This document shows positions 1-34,858 of a stretch of DNA of 64,000 bases, piece by piece (position 1 is the first letter of the stretch; every line of letters starts with the position of its first letter). Source of the stretch: Chloroflexota bacterium (GTDB lineage Bacteria; Chloroflexota; Anaerolineae; Anaerolineales; UBA4823); assembly GCA_012516075.1 (NCBI GenBank), contig JAAYXE010000159.1, forward strand, positions 1 through 64,000, in the 5' to 3' direction. The notes beneath the pieces were generated by a model. The model was not told the origin of the DNA. It did not search any database and saw nothing but the letters and a program-made list of their open reading frames with translations. Made by a program: the position numbers and the translations under genes.

Positions 1-2376
1 CAGGTATTTCTCTGCGATCTCACGGACCGCCTGTCGTGCAGCCAGCAGCTTCTCACTGAGATCGCCCTGTGCACCTGCTGTGCCAGTGTGTCTGCGCTGA
101 CCGTGAACCAGCAGGTCAAAGCGCATTACGCCCCGGTTTTCGACACAGATCTCTCCCCACAGTTCATCTCCTTTTTCGCCGGTTCGCTCGCCGGCAATGA
201 ACAGCCCGGGGGTATACGGCTGTCCGTTTCTGGTGACCCCTTCCTCCTCCAGCAGCTTCAGCATATGAGGGGTACCCATCGGATCCGCCTCCCCGTTCTC
301 CTCATTCCCGACCAGCAGCAGGTTCACAGGCGGATAAGGAGGTCCCTGGCGGAGCTGGTCCTTCATCCACACCAGGTAAGTGGCTACCACGGTTTTCATA
401 TCCGCTGCGCCCCGGCCCACCAGGTAATCTCCATCGACCACCGGGTTGAACTGGCTGTCGTCTGGTTCGGGCGGTACCACATCAAAATGTCCGCCCAGCA
501 TCACCGGGGCGAAGAGCCCCTCCGGGAAACCGGCGGCGATGGCAGGGTAAGTCTCCTGCTCGTGGAAGATTACCTCCAGCCCGTGATCTCGCAGATAACC
601 GGCGATGAACGCTGCCGCCCGGCTGACTTCATCCAGGCGCTCCTGCGGCGCGGCGGTCACCGACGGGATCTGGATTAACTGCCGGGCCAGGTCTACGATT
701 TCGCTGGTCTTGTCCGGATACGAGACATCCAGCATGACGGCAGGATGGTGCCGGAAACGAATGGGGGCCAGCGGATCCCTGCGCTCGTCCTCACGCGCCC
801 GCTGCAGGAACTCCGAGATTTTTCGCCCGTCCACGCCAGCTAGACTGCGGTCGCTGGCAATGCGCTCGATATCTTTCGCTACCTGGGCTTCTCGCTCTTC
901 GGCCAGAGCCTTCAACAGGTCCAGGGGAAGTTCACCTTCCTTACCAGCTTCTAGACGCAGTCGCTCACGCAGGCGTTCAGCCGTAGAGGGCATTCCGGCT
1001 GCCATCTCGACCAGCGGCTGCAGATCTTCCCACACTCCCAGCGCCTCAGCCAGCGGACGGACGCCTTGCAGCGTCCATTCGAGGAATGTGCGCATTCCCA
1101 CAGGTTTACCGTTGAACGGATTTTCAATCATCGCGCGCAGGCCGTGGCGCGCCGCCAGTTCCTCGTTCCGTCGAACGCAGGCGATATCTTCTGCATCGTA
1201 GCGAAATGCGCTGGCGAACTCGGGATCTGCGTAAATACAGGCCAGCAGCAGCTGTTTCAATGTAAGGTTGGCAGTGTCCACCTCCAGCAGATGTCCCCCG
1301 TCGTCGGTGCGCACTTCAACCCGTGCCATGGGCAGGTTGATGCGCGCCATCAGGTTCTGCATCTCAATCTGCCGGGCCATTTCCGTCCGGTCAGCGGGCT
1401 TTCCGGCGGAGTAAAGTCCGCGTGCGTAGAGTTCCTCCAGCTGCTCGCTGGTGATCTCGATCAGTCTTTCTACGGGTTCGGCGAACGAGCGCGCCCGCAC
1501 AGGGGTCCAGTTATTGTTCCCAAAACGCACGCCGCTGCGCACCAGCCGGTAAGAGATCTGCAGGTAATCCTCGTAGGAGCGGTACAGATCCGGCAGGTCC
1601 AGTTCTGACGGGTTTGGAAAGGTCAGGTTGCGCACAGAATCTTCTTCAGCCAGAAAAACTTTCGTTTCGCCGTTCAGCCGCACTGAACGAAAGGGAGTGG
1701 CTGCACTGGTGGCGATAAACAGAGCCGCAAACGCGCGCATGCGGCGCGCCGCCTGGATGTAGAACTCGCTTTTGAATTCATCCAGATGCCGGTCGCCGCG
1801 CTCCGCTGCCGAAAGGTGCATAAAATCCCAGGCAAAAAGCGGTTCGGGCAGCGAGAGGTTCGCATGCAGGCCCGCGGTTGCCAGCCGCTCACCGAACAGG
1901 TTCACACAGCGTTCCAGGTACAACCGCTTGGCTAAATGCCAAGATCTGGGGATCGAGTCTGGCCCAACCGGAACCGGCCGCGGCAGCACGCCCGGCCAGC
2001 TGTAAAGCCGCACGCCAAAGGTTCGCCCGGCCCGGCTGAGGGCGTTGATCAGCGCTGCTTCCATCAGCCGGCTCTCGTATACTGCTCCGCGTGGAGAATA
2101 ATACGGTCTCGTCACCCATTCAATCATCCAGTGAAAGACCTCCAGCTGGCTGTGGACGCGCACCCAGGGTGACAGGCATTCCGCACGCAGATAGTCGACG
2201 AACGACTGCTGGCTGGGGCCCGAACCCACCGTCAGCAGCGGGCGCAGCTCTTCATCCAGCAGGTTCCACTCCAGTTCAAACCCGCTGGCCCCATTCTCAG
2301 GCTGGCTTTCACTGGCCTTTTCCAGGGCAAGCAGGTATTTATCAGCAAACCGGTAAAGCAAGTTATCAGAGGGCAT
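1..2376 (-). CDS. Glutamate-cysteine-ligase-like / M20 metallopeptidase fusion protein (C-terminus off the left edge)
   Basis: One uninterrupted reading frame of 792 codons, with no stop before the edge. Residues about 1-545 resemble the glutamate-cysteine ligase (carboxylate-amine ligase) fold: GFELEW at 32-37, GLHANLSLPEP at 169-179, ATSAATPF at 222-229 and an RVEVRT strand near 352. From about residue 560 it is an M20 (ArgE/DapE/RocB-type) zinc peptidase: GHFDVVPPE (H630, D632), GRGAADMKT (D659), NEENG (E692, E693) and a RRHTGTAG lid-domain motif. The start ATG (base 2376) overlaps the end of the upstream aminotransferase by 11 bases, so the two are translationally coupled. The ligase part could attach, and the peptidase part remove, an amide-linked group; this is inference. 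The substrate is unknown. Both halves keep recognisable motifs, so neither looks decayed. Confidence 0.8.
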   Translation of the reverse strand, partial: MPSDNLLYRFADKYLLALEKASESQPENGASGFELEWNLLDEELRPLLTVGSGPSQQSFVDYLRAECLSPWVRVHSQLEVFHWMIEWVTRPYYSPRGAVYESRLMEAALINALSRAGRTFGVRLYSWPGVLPRPVPVGPDSIPRSWHLAKRLYLERCVNLFGERLATAGLHANLSLPEPLFAWDFMHLSAAERGDRHLDEFKSEFYIQAARRMRAFAALFIATSAATPFRSVRLNGETKVFLAEEDSVRNLTFPNPSELDLPDLYRSYEDYLQISYRLVRSGVRFGNNNWTPVRARSFAEPVERLIEITSEQLEELYARGLYSAGKPADRTEMARQIEMQNLMARINLPMARVEVRTDDGGHLLEVDTANLTLKQLLLACIYADPEFASAFRYDAEDIACVRRNEELAARHGLRAMIENPFNGKPVGMRTFLEWTLQGVRPLAEALGVWEDLQPLVEMAAGMPSTAERLRERLRLEAGKEGELPLDLLKALAEEREAQVAKDIERIASDRSLAGVDGRKISEFLQRAREDERRDPLAPIRFRHHPAVMLDVSYPDKTSEIVDLARQLIQIPSVTAAPQERLDEVSRAAAFIAGYLRDHGLEVIFHEQETYPAIAAGFPEGLFAPVMLGGHFDVVPPEPDDSQFNPVVDGDYLVGRGAADMKTVVATYLVWMKDQLRQGPPYPPVNLLLVGNEENGEADPMGTPHMLKLLEEEGVTRNGQPYTPGLFIAGERTGEKGDELWGEICVENRGVMRFDLLVHGQRRHTGTAGAQGDLSEKLLAARQAVREIAEKYL

Positions 2377-3670
2377 ACAGGCCTTCCATCAGACGCTGGG
2401 CTGCGCCCAGGGTATATTCGGGAGCGTTGGCGTAGGAAAAACGGATCCACTGCGCGCCGTACGGAGAAAAGTAAACCCCTGGTACCACCGCGACTCCGTG
2501 TTCTTCCGCCAGATACTGTCCCAGGGGTTCGCTGTCCGCCCAGCCTTTTCGCTCCAGCCACTGGCTGACTTCAATAAAGGCATAATATCCTTTACCCAGG
2601 ATGAAGCGCACACGCTGCTCCTGCAGGTACTGCTCGAGCAGCCTGCGGCTGGTGTTCGTCGGTTCCACAATCCCCCTGCAGGCTTCGGAATACCCCATTT
2701 CGTAAGCAGCCATCGCCACCGCCAGTGCGAAGTATGAGGGCATCACCGTGTGCGAAGCCCGCGCTGCAGCGAACTGGATTACTTCTTCCGCAGCGATGAG
2801 ATGACAGCAGCGAATATTCGAAGCCCCCAGGCTCTTCGTCAGCCCATCCAGAAACATCAGCCGCTTTCGATCTTCCGCATCAAATAATCGCAGGAATGTG
2901 TTCAGGTCTGCCGGCTGTTCGTCTGTGACATAGTGATACATCCAGTCAAAGAGCACGAAGGCGACCCCTAAGCGCAGCGCTTCCTGTGCCAGGCAGGCCT
3001 GTTCTTCAAGTGATAGAGTCTTTCCGGTGGGATTATCAGGAGAGGTAATGATCACCCCCGCGGCCTTTCTCCCGGATCGCTCTGCAAAGCGTACGCTTTC
3101 ACGGATGCTGTCCGGGGTCAGAGACCAGCCCGCTTCCGGTTTTCCCGGAGCGTACAGGACATTGGCCCCTACGCTGTACGGTCCCCAGTTGTACGAAATC
3201 CAGGGTACCCGGGTCGTGATGATCACATCTCCTTCCCGCCCGTGGCCCAGTGCCAGCATTGCCTGGTAGGCTTTTACCAGGGCATCTCGCCCGCCGCTCG
3301 TTCCCAGCACATTCGCCGGCCCAATGCCCAGACCAGGATCGATTCGCCAGTACTGTTCAATAACCGCCTGCCGGAACGCAGGGGTGCCAAATGGCAGGTC
3401 ATACGCGGTCCCATGCTCGATTTGCAGCTCCGCAGCACGTTCCAGGATGGCGCGCGGCACTCCCGGCAGACTGGCCCCTCCATCCCCCTGTGATGCATCG
3501 AAAACGGGCCGCTCAGGATTGCGCTCCCGGTATACCTTGAGCGACTTGTTTATGATGAACATGCGTGACGGCGGGATCGCTGCCATCTGGCTGAGGTGCC
3601 CGCTGACCGGCACCAGGTTCACTTCGGGTACGGCAAAAATGGGGGTGTCGTTGGATATATTGCTGCTCAT
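2366..3670 (-). CDS. Class I/II PLP-dependent aminotransferase
   Basis: 434 residues of the fold-type I aminotransferase family. Visible motifs are SPDNPTGK (substrate/PLP-ring Asn), FDWMYHY (PLP-contacting Tyr/Asp region) and LDGLTKSLGAS with the probable Schiff-base lysine at K279. The start ATG at 3670 follows a good Shine-Dalgarno (GGAAGGA, about 7 bases upstream). It is the first structural gene behind the Thr-rich leader/attenuator at 3756-3965 and overlaps the ligase/M20 fusion gene downstream, so the pair is one operon. Substrate specificity cannot be read from the sequence. Aminotransferases next to M20 deacylases occur in Arg, Lys and DAP synthesis, where an acyl group protects the amino group during transamination. 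Confidence 0.88.
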   Translation of the reverse strand: MSSNISNDTPIFAVPEVNLVPVSGHLSQMAAIPPSRMFIINKSLKVYRERNPERPVFDASQGDGGASLPGVPRAILERAAELQIEHGTAYDLPFGTPAFRQAVIEQYWRIDPGLGIGPANVLGTSGGRDALVKAYQAMLALGHGREGDVIITTRVPWISYNWGPYSVGANVLYAPGKPEAGWSLTPDSIRESVRFAERSGRKAAGVIITSPDNPTGKTLSLEEQACLAQEALRLGVAFVLFDWMYHYVTDEQPADLNTFLRLFDAEDRKRLMFLDGLTKSLGASNIRCCHLIAAEEVIQFAAARASHTVMPSYFALAVAMAAYEMGYSEACRGIVEPTNTSRRLLEQYLQEQRVRFILGKGYYAFIEVSQWLERKGWADSEPLGQYLAEEHGVAVVPGVYFSPYGAQWIRFSYANAPEYTLGAAQRLMEGLYAL

Positions 3671-3755
3671 CGTCGTTCCTTCCCTGGTTAAAAATTTTTC
3701 TTCTCGATCCTGTTTATCCTTTGGCTAGAAATGAGCTGCTTTGATCTCACCGCTT

Positions 3756-3789
3756 AAGAAAAACGCCCCGGTCTTACGATCGGGGCGTT
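3756..3789 (-). terminator. Attenuator terminator (segments 3:4) upstream of the aminotransferase operon
   Basis: Read on the minus strand: AACGCCCCGATC (3789-3778), a four-base loop GTAA, then GACCGGGGCGTT (3773-3762), followed by TTTCTT (3761-3756). The stem has nine contiguous pairs, one A-C mismatch and two more pairs, so it is a good intrinsic terminator. It lies after the leader peptide stop (3813) and 86 bases before the aminotransferase start, so unless prevented it would end transcription before the operon. Confidence 0.85.
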
Positions 3790-3812
3790 GGTAAGGTCAT
3801 GGGAACAGGTTT

Positions 3813-3926
3813 TCAATTTGCTGCTACCTGTGTTTTCACCGCGCCAGAACGCCCCGTGGTCCATGTAGTGACCACGGTATTGGTAGTGGTATTGGCATTG
3901 GTGAAAAGAACAGTCATTATGTCCAT
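3813..3926 (-). CDS. Threonine-rich leader peptide (37 aa)
   Basis: Short frame starting at ATG 3926, with a second in-frame ATG at 3917. Its core reads TNANTTTNTVVTTWTTG: nine of sixteen residues from position 9 to 24 are Thr, encoded by ACC, ACT, ACA and ACG. The composition recalls the E. coli thr leader. The predicted transcription start (about 3929-3931) lies only a few bases before the first ATG, so translation may be leaderless, or start at 3917 after a short weak leader. The coding region spans hairpin 1:2 and ends 24 bases before the terminator stem. The alternative is a chance frame over a short ACCAAT-type simple repeat; the matching RNA pairings argue against that. Confidence 0.7.
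   Translation of the reverse strand: MDIMTVLFTNANTTTNTVVTTWTTGRSGAVKTQVAAN
3848..3877 (-). promoter_or_regulatory. Anti-antiterminator / antiterminator segments of a threonine-type attenuator
   Basis: Segment 1 CCGTGGTC (3877-3870) pairs perfectly with segment 2 GACCACGG (3861-3854), giving an 8-bp stem with an 8-base loop. Segment 2' CGGGGCGTT (3856-3848) overlaps segment 2 by three bases and is perfectly complementary to the left arm of the downstream terminator, AACGCCCCG (3789-3781). The 2':3 pairing therefore excludes the 3:4 terminator, because 2' is identical in sequence to segment 4. Segment 1 lies in codons 17-19 of the leader peptide, just after a run of Thr codons. A ribosome stalled on Thr codons would cover segment 1, free 2', and allow read-through. 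The pairings are seen directly; function is inferred. Confidence 0.75.
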
Positions 3927-3936
3927 ATTGCGCCGA

Positions 3937-3965
3937 ACTATATCACAACCGGCTCAACTCGTCAA
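3937..3965 (-). promoter_or_regulatory. Sigma-70-type promoter of the attenuated aminotransferase operon
   Basis: Minus strand: -35 TTGACG (3965-3960), 17-bp spacer, -10 TATAGT (3942-3937). It lies within 40 bases after the polyprenyl synthase stop codon and directly before the Thr-rich leader peptide. Confidence 0.8.
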
Positions 3966-3975
3966 TGAATTGCTG

Positions 3976-4956
3976 TTAAAAGTGGCGGTCGCTCACATAG
4001 TGAGCCAGATCGGCCAGGGCATGCTTTTCGGGAGTATCAGGCATGTCTTCCAGGATTTCAAGCGAGCGCTCCACGTACGCCCGGGCTTCTTCCATTGCCT
4101 TTTCGATCGCTCCGCTGGAGCGGATATCGTTGACAACCCTTTCCAGTGTGGCTTCACTGTAATGCTTCCCGCTGATCACTTCCCGAATCCCATCATGCTC
4201 AGGATGTGCTTCCACGAAGTACAGCGCAGGAAGGGTTACCAGCCCCTGGCGCAGGTCATTCGCCACTGGCTTGCCAACGGTTTCCTGTTCTCCGGTGAAG
4301 TCGAGAATATCGTCGACGATCTGGAATGCCATACCGATTCCGTAGCCGAATTCACGCATATTCTCTTTCACATAATCATCCACTTCCGCCAGGATCGATG
4401 AAGCGCTGGTCGCAAGCTCGAACATGGATGCCGTCTTGGCATAAATGCGCTGGTAGTAGTTCTCTCGGCTGATAACTCCCTTGCTGGAAAACAACTGCGT
4501 GATTTCTCCGTCGACGATGACCGCCAGCGTCCTTGCAAAGAGCCGGATGACTTCGGGAGACCGGGTTTCTGCTGCCAGTTGGGCGGCGCGAGCAAATACG
4601 AAATCTCCCGTCAGAACCGTGGCAGCAGGAGACCACTGGGAATTTAACGTGGCGATACCGCGCCGCAGCAGAGCTCCGTCGATCAGATCGTCGTGCACCA
4701 GGGTGGCGGTATGCAGCAGTTCAATCGCCGCAGCCAGGGTGATTAGTTTCTCCTGATTCCCACCGAACATTCCTCCGGTGAGCAGCGCAATAGCAGGGCG
4801 AATTCGTTTTCCTCCGGAAGAGAGCAGGTGCTCCAGAGCAGCGCCCAGGTCCGGATGGTGCCCCTCGGCCTGGGCGCGCATCAGTTCCTCTACTTTCGGG
4901 ATGATAGCCTGGACCGGGGTGAAAAAATTTACCGTGTGCGATGGTTTGTTCACCAA
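3976..4956 (-). CDS. Polyprenyl diphosphate synthase (trans-isoprenyl diphosphate synthase)
   Basis: 326 residues, normal length for the family. The first Asp-rich motif is in LVHDDLIDGALLRRG, the second is FQIVDDILDFTG; both bind Mg-diphosphate. GGKRIRPA near residue 50 binds IPP. The enzyme condenses IPP units onto an allylic diphosphate to make a long prenyl chain, presumably the quinone side chain; the chain length cannot be told. The gene overlaps tatD by 7 bases and ends just before the promoter of the next unit. Confidence 0.92.
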   Translation of the reverse strand: MVNKPSHTVNFFTPVQAIIPKVEELMRAQAEGHHPDLGAALEHLLSSGGKRIRPAIALLTGGMFGGNQEKLITLAAAIELLHTATLVHDDLIDGALLRRGIATLNSQWSPAATVLTGDFVFARAAQLAAETRSPEVIRLFARTLAVIVDGEITQLFSSKGVISRENYYQRIYAKTASMFELATSASSILAEVDDYVKENMREFGYGIGMAFQIVDDILDFTGEQETVGKPVANDLRQGLVTLPALYFVEAHPEHDGIREVISGKHYSEATLERVVNDIRSSGAIEKAMEEARAYVERSLEILEDMPDTPEKHALADLAHYVSDRHF

Positions 4957-33685: not shown

Positions 33686-34858
33686 ATGGTCTTTAAACGT
33701 TCTTTTTTTATAACTCTCGGGATCGTCAGCCTGCTGGTGTTGGCCTTCGGTGCAGGCTATTTTTTCCGCGATTACCGCTCTTCAGCCCTGGAACGCTTCA
33801 CCATTTTCGCCAGCGCCTATGAAATCCTTCAAAAGAACGGGCTGAAGGAAATCCCCACAGATGGTCCGGATATCGAATACGGCATGATCCGCGGCATGCT
33901 GGAAGCCTACGGAGATCCCTATACCATCTTCGTGGAGCCTACCAGACATGAGCTGGATACAAACGCCCTTCAGGGCAGCTACGGCGGTATCGGCGTGGAT
34001 TTAATGCAGGATTCCGAAGGCCGCTGGCTTCTCTACCCCTACCCGGACAGCCCGGCAGCCAGAGCAGGTGTCCTGGAGGGCGACTGGCTGGTAGCCGTGG
34101 ATGGCACGCAGATCCTGCCCGAAACATCGGCCGAGGAGCTGCAGTCCGCCATACGTGGGCCGGTCGGGCGGCGCATACGACTGACCATTGCCCATCTACC
34201 CGACACGTCACCCGTGGAGATCTCGATCCGCCGGGAGGAAATCGCCATCCCCTCGCTCACCTGGCGCCTGGATAGCGATGACCCCCGGGTGGGGATTATC
34301 GACATCAATCTGATCGCTGCCAGTACAACAAAAGAAATTCAGGATGCCGTAGAAGATCTTCAGAACCGTCAGGCCGCTTACTTTGTGCTGGATCTGCGCA
34401 GCAATCCCGGCGGGCTGCTGACTGCAGGCGTGGATATCGCCCGCCTCTTTCTCAAGGACGGAGTCATCATCCAGCAGCAGTACCGCGGCCGGGATGTCGA
34501 GACTTTCCGGGTGGAAAGGCCGGGACCGCTGTCAGATATTCCACTGGCCGTGCTGATCGACGGCAGCAGCGCCAGCGCCGCGGAAATTATTGCCGGTGCG
34601 TTACAGGCGCACAACCGGGCGATCCTGGTGGGCTCGCCGTCCTTCGGTAAGGATACAATCCAGCTCGTGTTCAACCTGCCCGACGATTCCAGCCTGCATG
34701 TCACCGCCGCGCAGTGGTGGATCCCCAATCTGGAATACTCCCTCAGCGAAAACGGCCTGCAGCCGGATATCCTGGTGACGCCGCCCTCCGTCGACTCGTC
34801 TCCCGGCCAGGATGATGTCCTCCAGGCGGCCGTAACAGCCTTAACACAGGAAAACTGA
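33686..34858 (+). CDS. C-terminal processing peptidase (S41, CtpA/Prc family)
   Basis: 390 residues from ATG 33686, which puts the membrane anchor (FFITLGIVSLLVLAFGAGYFF) at the very N-terminus; a GTG start at 33626 would add 20 unlike residues. A PDZ domain (YGGIGVDLMQDSEG to about 190) precedes the S41 core: VLDLRSNPGGLL, then the catalytic Ser in GSSASAAEIIAGAL and Lys in SPSFGKDTIQ. It is a periplasmic or cell-surface protease that trims C-termini. Confidence 0.9.
   Translation: MVFKRSFFITLGIVSLLVLAFGAGYFFRDYRSSALERFTIFASAYEILQKNGLKEIPTDGPDIEYGMIRGMLEAYGDPYTIFVEPTRHELDTNALQGSYGGIGVDLMQDSEGRWLLYPYPDSPAARAGVLEGDWLVAVDGTQILPETSAEELQSAIRGPVGRRIRLTIAHLPDTSPVEISIRREEIAIPSLTWRLDSDDPRVGIIDINLIAASTTKEIQDAVEDLQNRQAAYFVLDLRSNPGGLLTAGVDIARLFLKDGVIIQQQYRGRDVETFRVERPGPLSDIPLAVLIDGSSASAAEIIAGALQAHNRAILVGSPSFGKDTIQLVFNLPDDSSLHVTAAQWWIPNLEYSLSENGLQPDILVTPPSVDSSPGQDDVLQAAVTALTQEN

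Follow-up and report, generated by a model that had tools for sequence, protein, structure and literature searches.

A predicted leaderless threonine/asparagine attenuator ahead of an aminotransferase operon in Anaerolineales

How is an operon controlled when it opens with an aminotransferase, continues with an unusual amidoligase–M20 fusion and is preceded by a short reading frame crowded with threonine codons? The locus raises this question because the original prediction saw in it ribosome-mediated attenuation of the threonine type. Our analysis of the site and its relatives supports attenuation ahead of the aminotransferase operon and broadens the signal. In our preferred reading, to which we give a probability of about 0.87, the site is a ribosome-mediated transcription attenuator whose leaderless peptide reads the supply of both charged tRNA-Thr and charged tRNA-Asn.

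In the window, by which we mean the whole 64-kb stretch of DNA that was analysed, all parts of this switch lie on the minus strand at the positions originally claimed. A sigma-70-type promoter (3937..3965) is made up of TTGACG (3965-3960), a 17-nt gap and TATAGT (3942-3937), with 10 of 12 matches and a TG ahead of the -10 box. The leader ATG stands at 3926, 10 nt past the -10 box, and opens a 37-codon reading frame (3813..3926, stop codon 3815-3813) that encodes MDIMTVLFTNANTTTNTVVTTWTTGRSGAVKTQVAAN, with nine Thr in residues 9-24 as had been counted. Within this frame lie segment 1 (CCGTGGTC, 3870..3877) and its partner segment 2 (GACCACGG, 3854..3861), both recognised from sequence, folding and relatives, and segment 2' (CGGGGCGTT, 3848..3856), the 5' arm of the antiterminator. 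Further on come segment 3 (AACGCCCCG, 3781..3789), which is common to antiterminator and terminator, and segment 4 (CGGGGCGTT, 3762..3770), the 3' arm of the terminator, whose last two bases are overlapped by the U-run TTTTTCTT (3756..3763) of the intrinsic terminator. Segments 2' and 4 are indeed the same 9-mer, segment 3 is complementary to each, and the antiterminator 2':3 and the terminator 3:4 are, judged from these sequences, mutually exclusive. The 259-nt minus-strand RNA folds at -74.8 kcal/mol, against -60.0 +/- 4.5 kcal/mol for dinucleotide shuffles (z -3.3), which is better than nearly all of them. A strict scan of the whole window for a promoter, an ATG 5-12 nt later, an ORF of 12-45 codons and a terminator returned only one match, the attenuator site. 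A simple terminator scan missed the terminator, the loop limit of the scan being 8 nt and the loop here being 10 nt or a mismatched extension.

The arrangement is widely kept among orthologous loci. From 61 related genomes we collected 30 aminotransferase orthologues with 61-71% identity, not including the copy in the window itself. A further 80 loci came from named GTDB assemblies, all of which bear titles of Chloroflexi/Chloroflexota or of Anaerolineales/Anaerolineae-type MAGs. Once duplicates were removed, 105 distinct upstream regions were left. A leader is present in 88 of these (Chloroflexota, Anaerolineales), with the same layout of promoter, AUG 6-13 nt past the -10 box, Thr/Asn-rich ORF, antiterminator and intrinsic terminator. 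They contain 81 distinct leader peptides, a set into which L026 was put and from which L030 was taken by hand; a GC-rich hairpin followed by a T-run is found in 80 of the 81, while the L026 leader has no Thr and its terminator was not found by the search. The conserved Thr codons and alternative pairing expected of Anaerolineae relatives were looked for with a positive outcome. No leader was found in the other 17 of the 105 upstream regions, a few of which are truncated (L100 has only 121 nt of upstream sequence) and several of which lie directly 3' of a polyprenyl synthase gene and carry a simple terminator only. When a covariance model of the leaders was run over 201 genomes that span the phylum, every hit at E <= 1e-6 came from the same order, so that by this model the leader is not phylum-wide; over the window's own genome the model returned no second full leader.

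The comparison of relatives also bears on how the switch might work. In an alignment of 67 leaders (A2), in which the T-run is conserved, helix 3:4 is paired in 98% of cells and shows 24 double changes, where shuffles give 3.4 and 0 of 500 are as high. Helix 2':3 is paired in 80% of cells and shows 21 double changes against a shuffle mean of 9.8, again with 0 of 500 shuffles as high, but the number of its pairs with a double change and its pair types are not above shuffles in this alignment. Covariation is thus clear for helix 3:4 and weaker for 2':3. Taken sequence by sequence, 69 of 80 leaders have a pairing of 2' with 3 that is better than in 95 or more of 100 shuffles, and triples of 2'/3/4 covary in several clades, for instance GCATT/AATGC/GCATT versus GCGTT/AACGC/GCGTT. 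When leaders were folded with segment 4 absent and the RNA upstream of 2' masked, 2':3 formed in 76 of 80, and even when segment 1 was left free it formed in 63 of 80, which argues that the off state relies mainly on transit of the ribosome over 2'. This modifies the role first given to the 1:2 hairpin. The hairpin is present in the window, but its exclusion of 2':3 is only partial: segments 2 and 2' overlap by just 3 nt (3856-3854), so that the two helices are not strictly exclusive, and they coexist on folding. Among relatives helix 1:2 is variable and better than 95% of shuffles in just 37 of 80. Ribosome occupancy of 2' is therefore probably the main anti-antiterminator, with helix 1:2 as an aid instead of an exact excluder.

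The codons of the leader point to two amino acids. Residues 6-20 of the 81 leaders are 31.5% Thr and 18.3% Asn, which corresponds to enrichments over mononucleotide shuffles of 3.2-fold for Thr, 3.5-fold for Asn and 2.1-fold for Asp; Lys (0.15), Pro, Gln, Glu and Tyr are under-represented. The Thr/Asn bias is seen in frame 0 only and is missing from the other reading frames. In 76 close leader pairs, differences at codon positions 1/2/3 number 254/241/432, and Thr-to-Thr synonymous changes are the most frequent class at Thr/Asn codons. The threonine-type sensor originally proposed is thus right about Thr and too narrow in naming Thr alone, and the codon content indicates a mixed Thr plus Asn sensor, with some Asp. 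Thr and Asn are both derived from aspartate, and the mixture suggests a two-amino-acid sensor for a common precursor. In the window the effective control codons are predicted to be residues 9-17, TNANTTTNT (3876..3902), with five Thr and three Asn, the latter at residues 10, 12 and 16. This placement draws on geometry, on the size of the ribosome footprint and on folding of the unmasked RNA: a ribosome stalled at Thr20-24 would cover segment 2', whereas one stalled within residues 9-17 would leave it free.

The near-absent 5' leader noticed originally holds up among relatives. The distance from the -10 box to the AUG is 6-13 nt in 81 of 81 leaders (mode 8, next 10), a spacing that is partly circular as evidence because the leader finder allowed 5-13 nt. 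When the best promoter was picked regardless of the AUG, 78 of 80 leaders had their AUG 4-16 nt past it. Ahead of the leader start an SD-like motif was found in 0 of 80, and ahead of the aminotransferase start in 72 of 80. The leader is therefore probably translated leaderless from the RNA 5' end, which suggests that leaderless translation is the usual start for such sensor peptides in this lineage.

These elements can be assembled into the following mechanism. The RNA would begin at most a few bases from the leader AUG, and its end would be the site of initiation by 70S ribosomes. If charged Thr- or Asn-tRNA were short, the ribosome would stall in codons 9-17 and mask segment 1, leaving 2' free to pair with segment 3 before segment 4 exists; no terminator would then form and the operon would be transcribed. 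With a good supply the ribosome would pass over 2', helped in part by helix 1:2, so that 3:4 could pair and RNA polymerase would be expected to halt in the U-run.

Among other explanations, the one with most weight, which we nevertheless consider unlikely, is a pure threonine attenuator of the thrL type, in which Asn would be incidental or would result from pairing of ACC-AAT codons with 2'. Thr is the commonest leader residue, and it also makes up most of the leaders that relatives have at thrC and lysC. In some leaders the ACC-AAT codons can pair with GTTGGT of segment 2', so that the Thr-Asn signal of one clade could partly be an RNA constraint; CCAA occurs 84 times in the Thr-Asn frame against 13 in the other two frames. 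However, Asn is present in 81 of 81 leaders, three of which have at most one Thr and keep their Asn runs, its enrichment over shuffles is as strong as that of Thr, and an Asn-rich leader at aspS-gatCA suggests that Asn is sensed in relatives.

The remaining alternatives dispense with amino-acid sensing by a stalled ribosome. It is very improbable that the locus is a small protein gene with its own terminator, whose peptide acts in trans while the operon is reached by constitutive read-through. The ORF is conserved and looks translated, and leaderless sORFs are known to give small proteins (PMC4633059), but the length and sequence of the leader vary widely, its C-terminal part tracks the RNA pairing (GRW/RWGV is encoded by 2'), such a gene has no need of complementarity between 2' and 3, and the leaders at other operons have pathway-matched codons. 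A slimmer chance still falls to a T-box or a protein-binding or ligand-binding riboswitch in place of ribosome stalling. An alternative terminator and antiterminator would fit many sensors, but at 3400-4200 no Rfam family matches above chance among matches up to E = 10, where Thr_leader is likewise absent and the T-box model gives no match, and it is the reading frame that is conserved, with codons matched to the pathway. Least probable of all is a chance ORF next to a terminator that belongs to the polyprenyl synthase gene upstream, a combination that would recall the simple terminator between polyprenyl synthase and aminotransferase in leader-less relatives. Against this, the genes found upstream of leader, promoter and 2' are of many different kinds, and related leaders stand before lysC, hisG, aspS and argG.

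What the attenuator would regulate can be judged from the two genes and their neighbourhood in relatives. The first gene (2366..3670, minus strand) encodes a 434-aa class I/II PLP aminotransferase with orthologues 61-72% identical in Anaerolineales. When it is aligned with the aspartate aminotransferase of Thermus, the PLP lysine is matched by the lysine of FLDGLTKSLGAS, the K of VGGKQA by the invariant R128, and the arginine of HVRLSYA by R410. These correspondences suggest that the aminotransferase acts on acidic substrates. The second gene (1..2376, minus strand) encodes a glutamate-cysteine-ligase-like amidoligase domain fused to an M20 peptidase domain, and is incomplete, running off the contig at its end, since the window starts at contig base 1. 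Pfam detects only the M20 part. Residues 1-540 give an AlphaFold model with pLDDT 88 and pTM 0.91 that matches YbdK and E. coli GshA with Foldseek E values of 5e-10 to 4e-9; E34, E36, H171 and N173 are invariant in 50 sequences, and of five relatives inspected most have the M20 motifs GHFDVV, (G)AADMK and NEENGE. The fusion is an unusual one that is almost always paired with the aminotransferase: of the 88 loci with context, about 80 have it behind that gene.

This context points to aspartate-family metabolism. Aspartate kinase lies behind the operon in eight loci, among them those of the g20 clade and G041, asd is near it in two (L043 and L038), and RhtB-like exporters, homocysteine methyltransferase and argG-argH are near it in a few relatives; in three genomes (G014, G016 and G028) the aminotransferase has no leader and lysC has a Thr leader. 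The aspartate kinase and asd genes in relatives, together with the Thr leader at lysC, make it probable that the operon belongs to aspartate-family metabolism, and supply of aspartate-family amino acids is the most likely role predicted for its enzymes. The remark that no known thr genes are controlled thus holds here and is incomplete for relatives, and the threonine-consuming pathway once suggested probably gives way to an aspartate-family one. Three more specific assignments fared poorly. Replacement of threonine synthase was rejected, as thrC-family matches occur in 60 of 61 genomes, aminotransferase-bearing ones included. Replacement of DapL in the lysine/DAP route is not supported, since Lys codons are depleted in the leaders and a strong DapL-like match accompanies the aminotransferase in most genomes that have it. 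The protein is not filed as a GntC/VioD-type cyclase either, its best NCBIfam score being 99 bits against a cut-off of 415 bits. A conserved, codon-readable switch in a mostly uncultured class offers a functional label for genes that homology cannot name, and here the label would place the aminotransferase and the amidoligase–M20 fusion with threonine/asparagine, and hence aspartate, metabolism.

The mechanism itself is known, and what is new is the variant and its lineage. The thrL leader of enterobacteria reads Thr and Ile and has a normal 5' leader with an SD site. The present leader resembles it in being short and Thr-rich, with an alternative antiterminator and intrinsic terminator and aspartate-family genes, and differs in its Thr/Asn codons, an AUG at the predicted RNA end, other genes, another phylum and no Rfam match. 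A comparative analysis by Lopatovskaya et al. (2010) is cited in PMC4833913. Candidate his attenuators proposed for Gram-positive bacteria by comparative genomics (PMC9413887) share the leader, antiterminator and terminator, and concern other phyla and another amino acid. In Streptomyces, leuL1, leuL2, trpL1 and trpL2 are leader ORFs found to be leaderless by RNA-seq (PMC8079986); they too have pathway-matched codons and in some cases a hairpin with a U-run, but they are actinobacterial, read Leu or Trp, and owe their leaderless status to RNA-seq, where the leaderless start predicted here draws on promoter spacing. Mycobacterial polycysteine sORFs, as described in a citation of Canestrari et al. 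2020 (PMC9031893), are leaderless attenuators in which an amino acid is sensed through a repeated regulatory codon. Their codons are for Cys and a conserved terminator hairpin was not found for them (PMC1262725), whereas the intrinsic terminator here is conserved. There are thus precedents for attenuation, for Thr leaders and for leaderless leader peptides (PMC8079986, PMC9031893, PMC1262725); in the open-access literature searched we found no report of amino-acid attenuators in Chloroflexota.

Related leaders stand before other operons. The covariance model, run against 121 relatives, matched leaders whose codon content fits the operon behind them, with product names checked by NCBIfam for representatives and otherwise assigned by eye. 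MSAQITFTATTTTTTQALLGRRRVGG precedes thrC-lysC (L129), Thr leaders precede lysC (L130-L132, L139 and L315), and Thr plus Met leaders such as MKSVHFATTMTMNTSGPRREAFVHGMK precede lysC-asd, with OAHS and metA also present in L134 and L143. HAHHH-type His leaders are found before hisG (L135, L137 and L142), and the Arg-rich RVRRPRP before argG, argH and a LysX-like ligase (L138, 2733-2892). The leaderless, Asn/Asp-rich NNNNNDNDD before aspS-gatC-gatA (L141; similar in L144, L145 and L148) would, from its codons, apparently sense Asn supply for the tRNA-dependent amidation route. It is possible, although we hold this only tentatively, that two things are true together: that leaderless codon-matched attenuators are general in Anaerolineae amino-acid and tRNA-synthetase operons, and that the one described here marks an undescribed aspartate-family route. 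In that route, as doubtful as the joint reading to which it belongs, amidoligase, aminotransferase and M20 hydrolase would in turn protect, transaminate and deprotect an amino-protected intermediate, as in DapD-DapC-DapE or LysX-LysJ-LysK, with a new blocking group. A ~380-aa protein with no Pfam match is encoded behind lysC in several relatives (L129 1988-3130 and L132 3127-4260, minus strand).

The window's own genome holds a hisG-like gene with a leaderless His leader, MKTPLTASHHHIRHSPA, shortly past a -10 box and followed by a hairpin and T-run (G000:C86 near 34018-34058; locus L184, leader at about base 1539). This leader was picked up by a promoter-ATG pattern, which in all gave 43 matches against 23 for the reversed control pattern, and most of them are ordinary genes; a Trp-rich ORF before an aquaporin-like gene on this list was rejected as an attenuator. 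In a relative, G085, 2.0 Mb were scanned and gave 17 candidates against one in shuffled sequence. Among these are, at G085:C8 1128609 and 422497 respectively, a Met-rich leader before a likely methionyl-tRNA synthetase and an aromatic one, MLKSARWFAYFYF, before a likely chorismate mutase, both products being named by eye; several of the other candidates resemble noise inside coding sequence. Lastly, in the window's own genome a short leaderless ORF and a terminator precede a dihydroorotase-like gene (L179, G000:C67 near 11061), which may possibly represent a pyrimidine attenuator.
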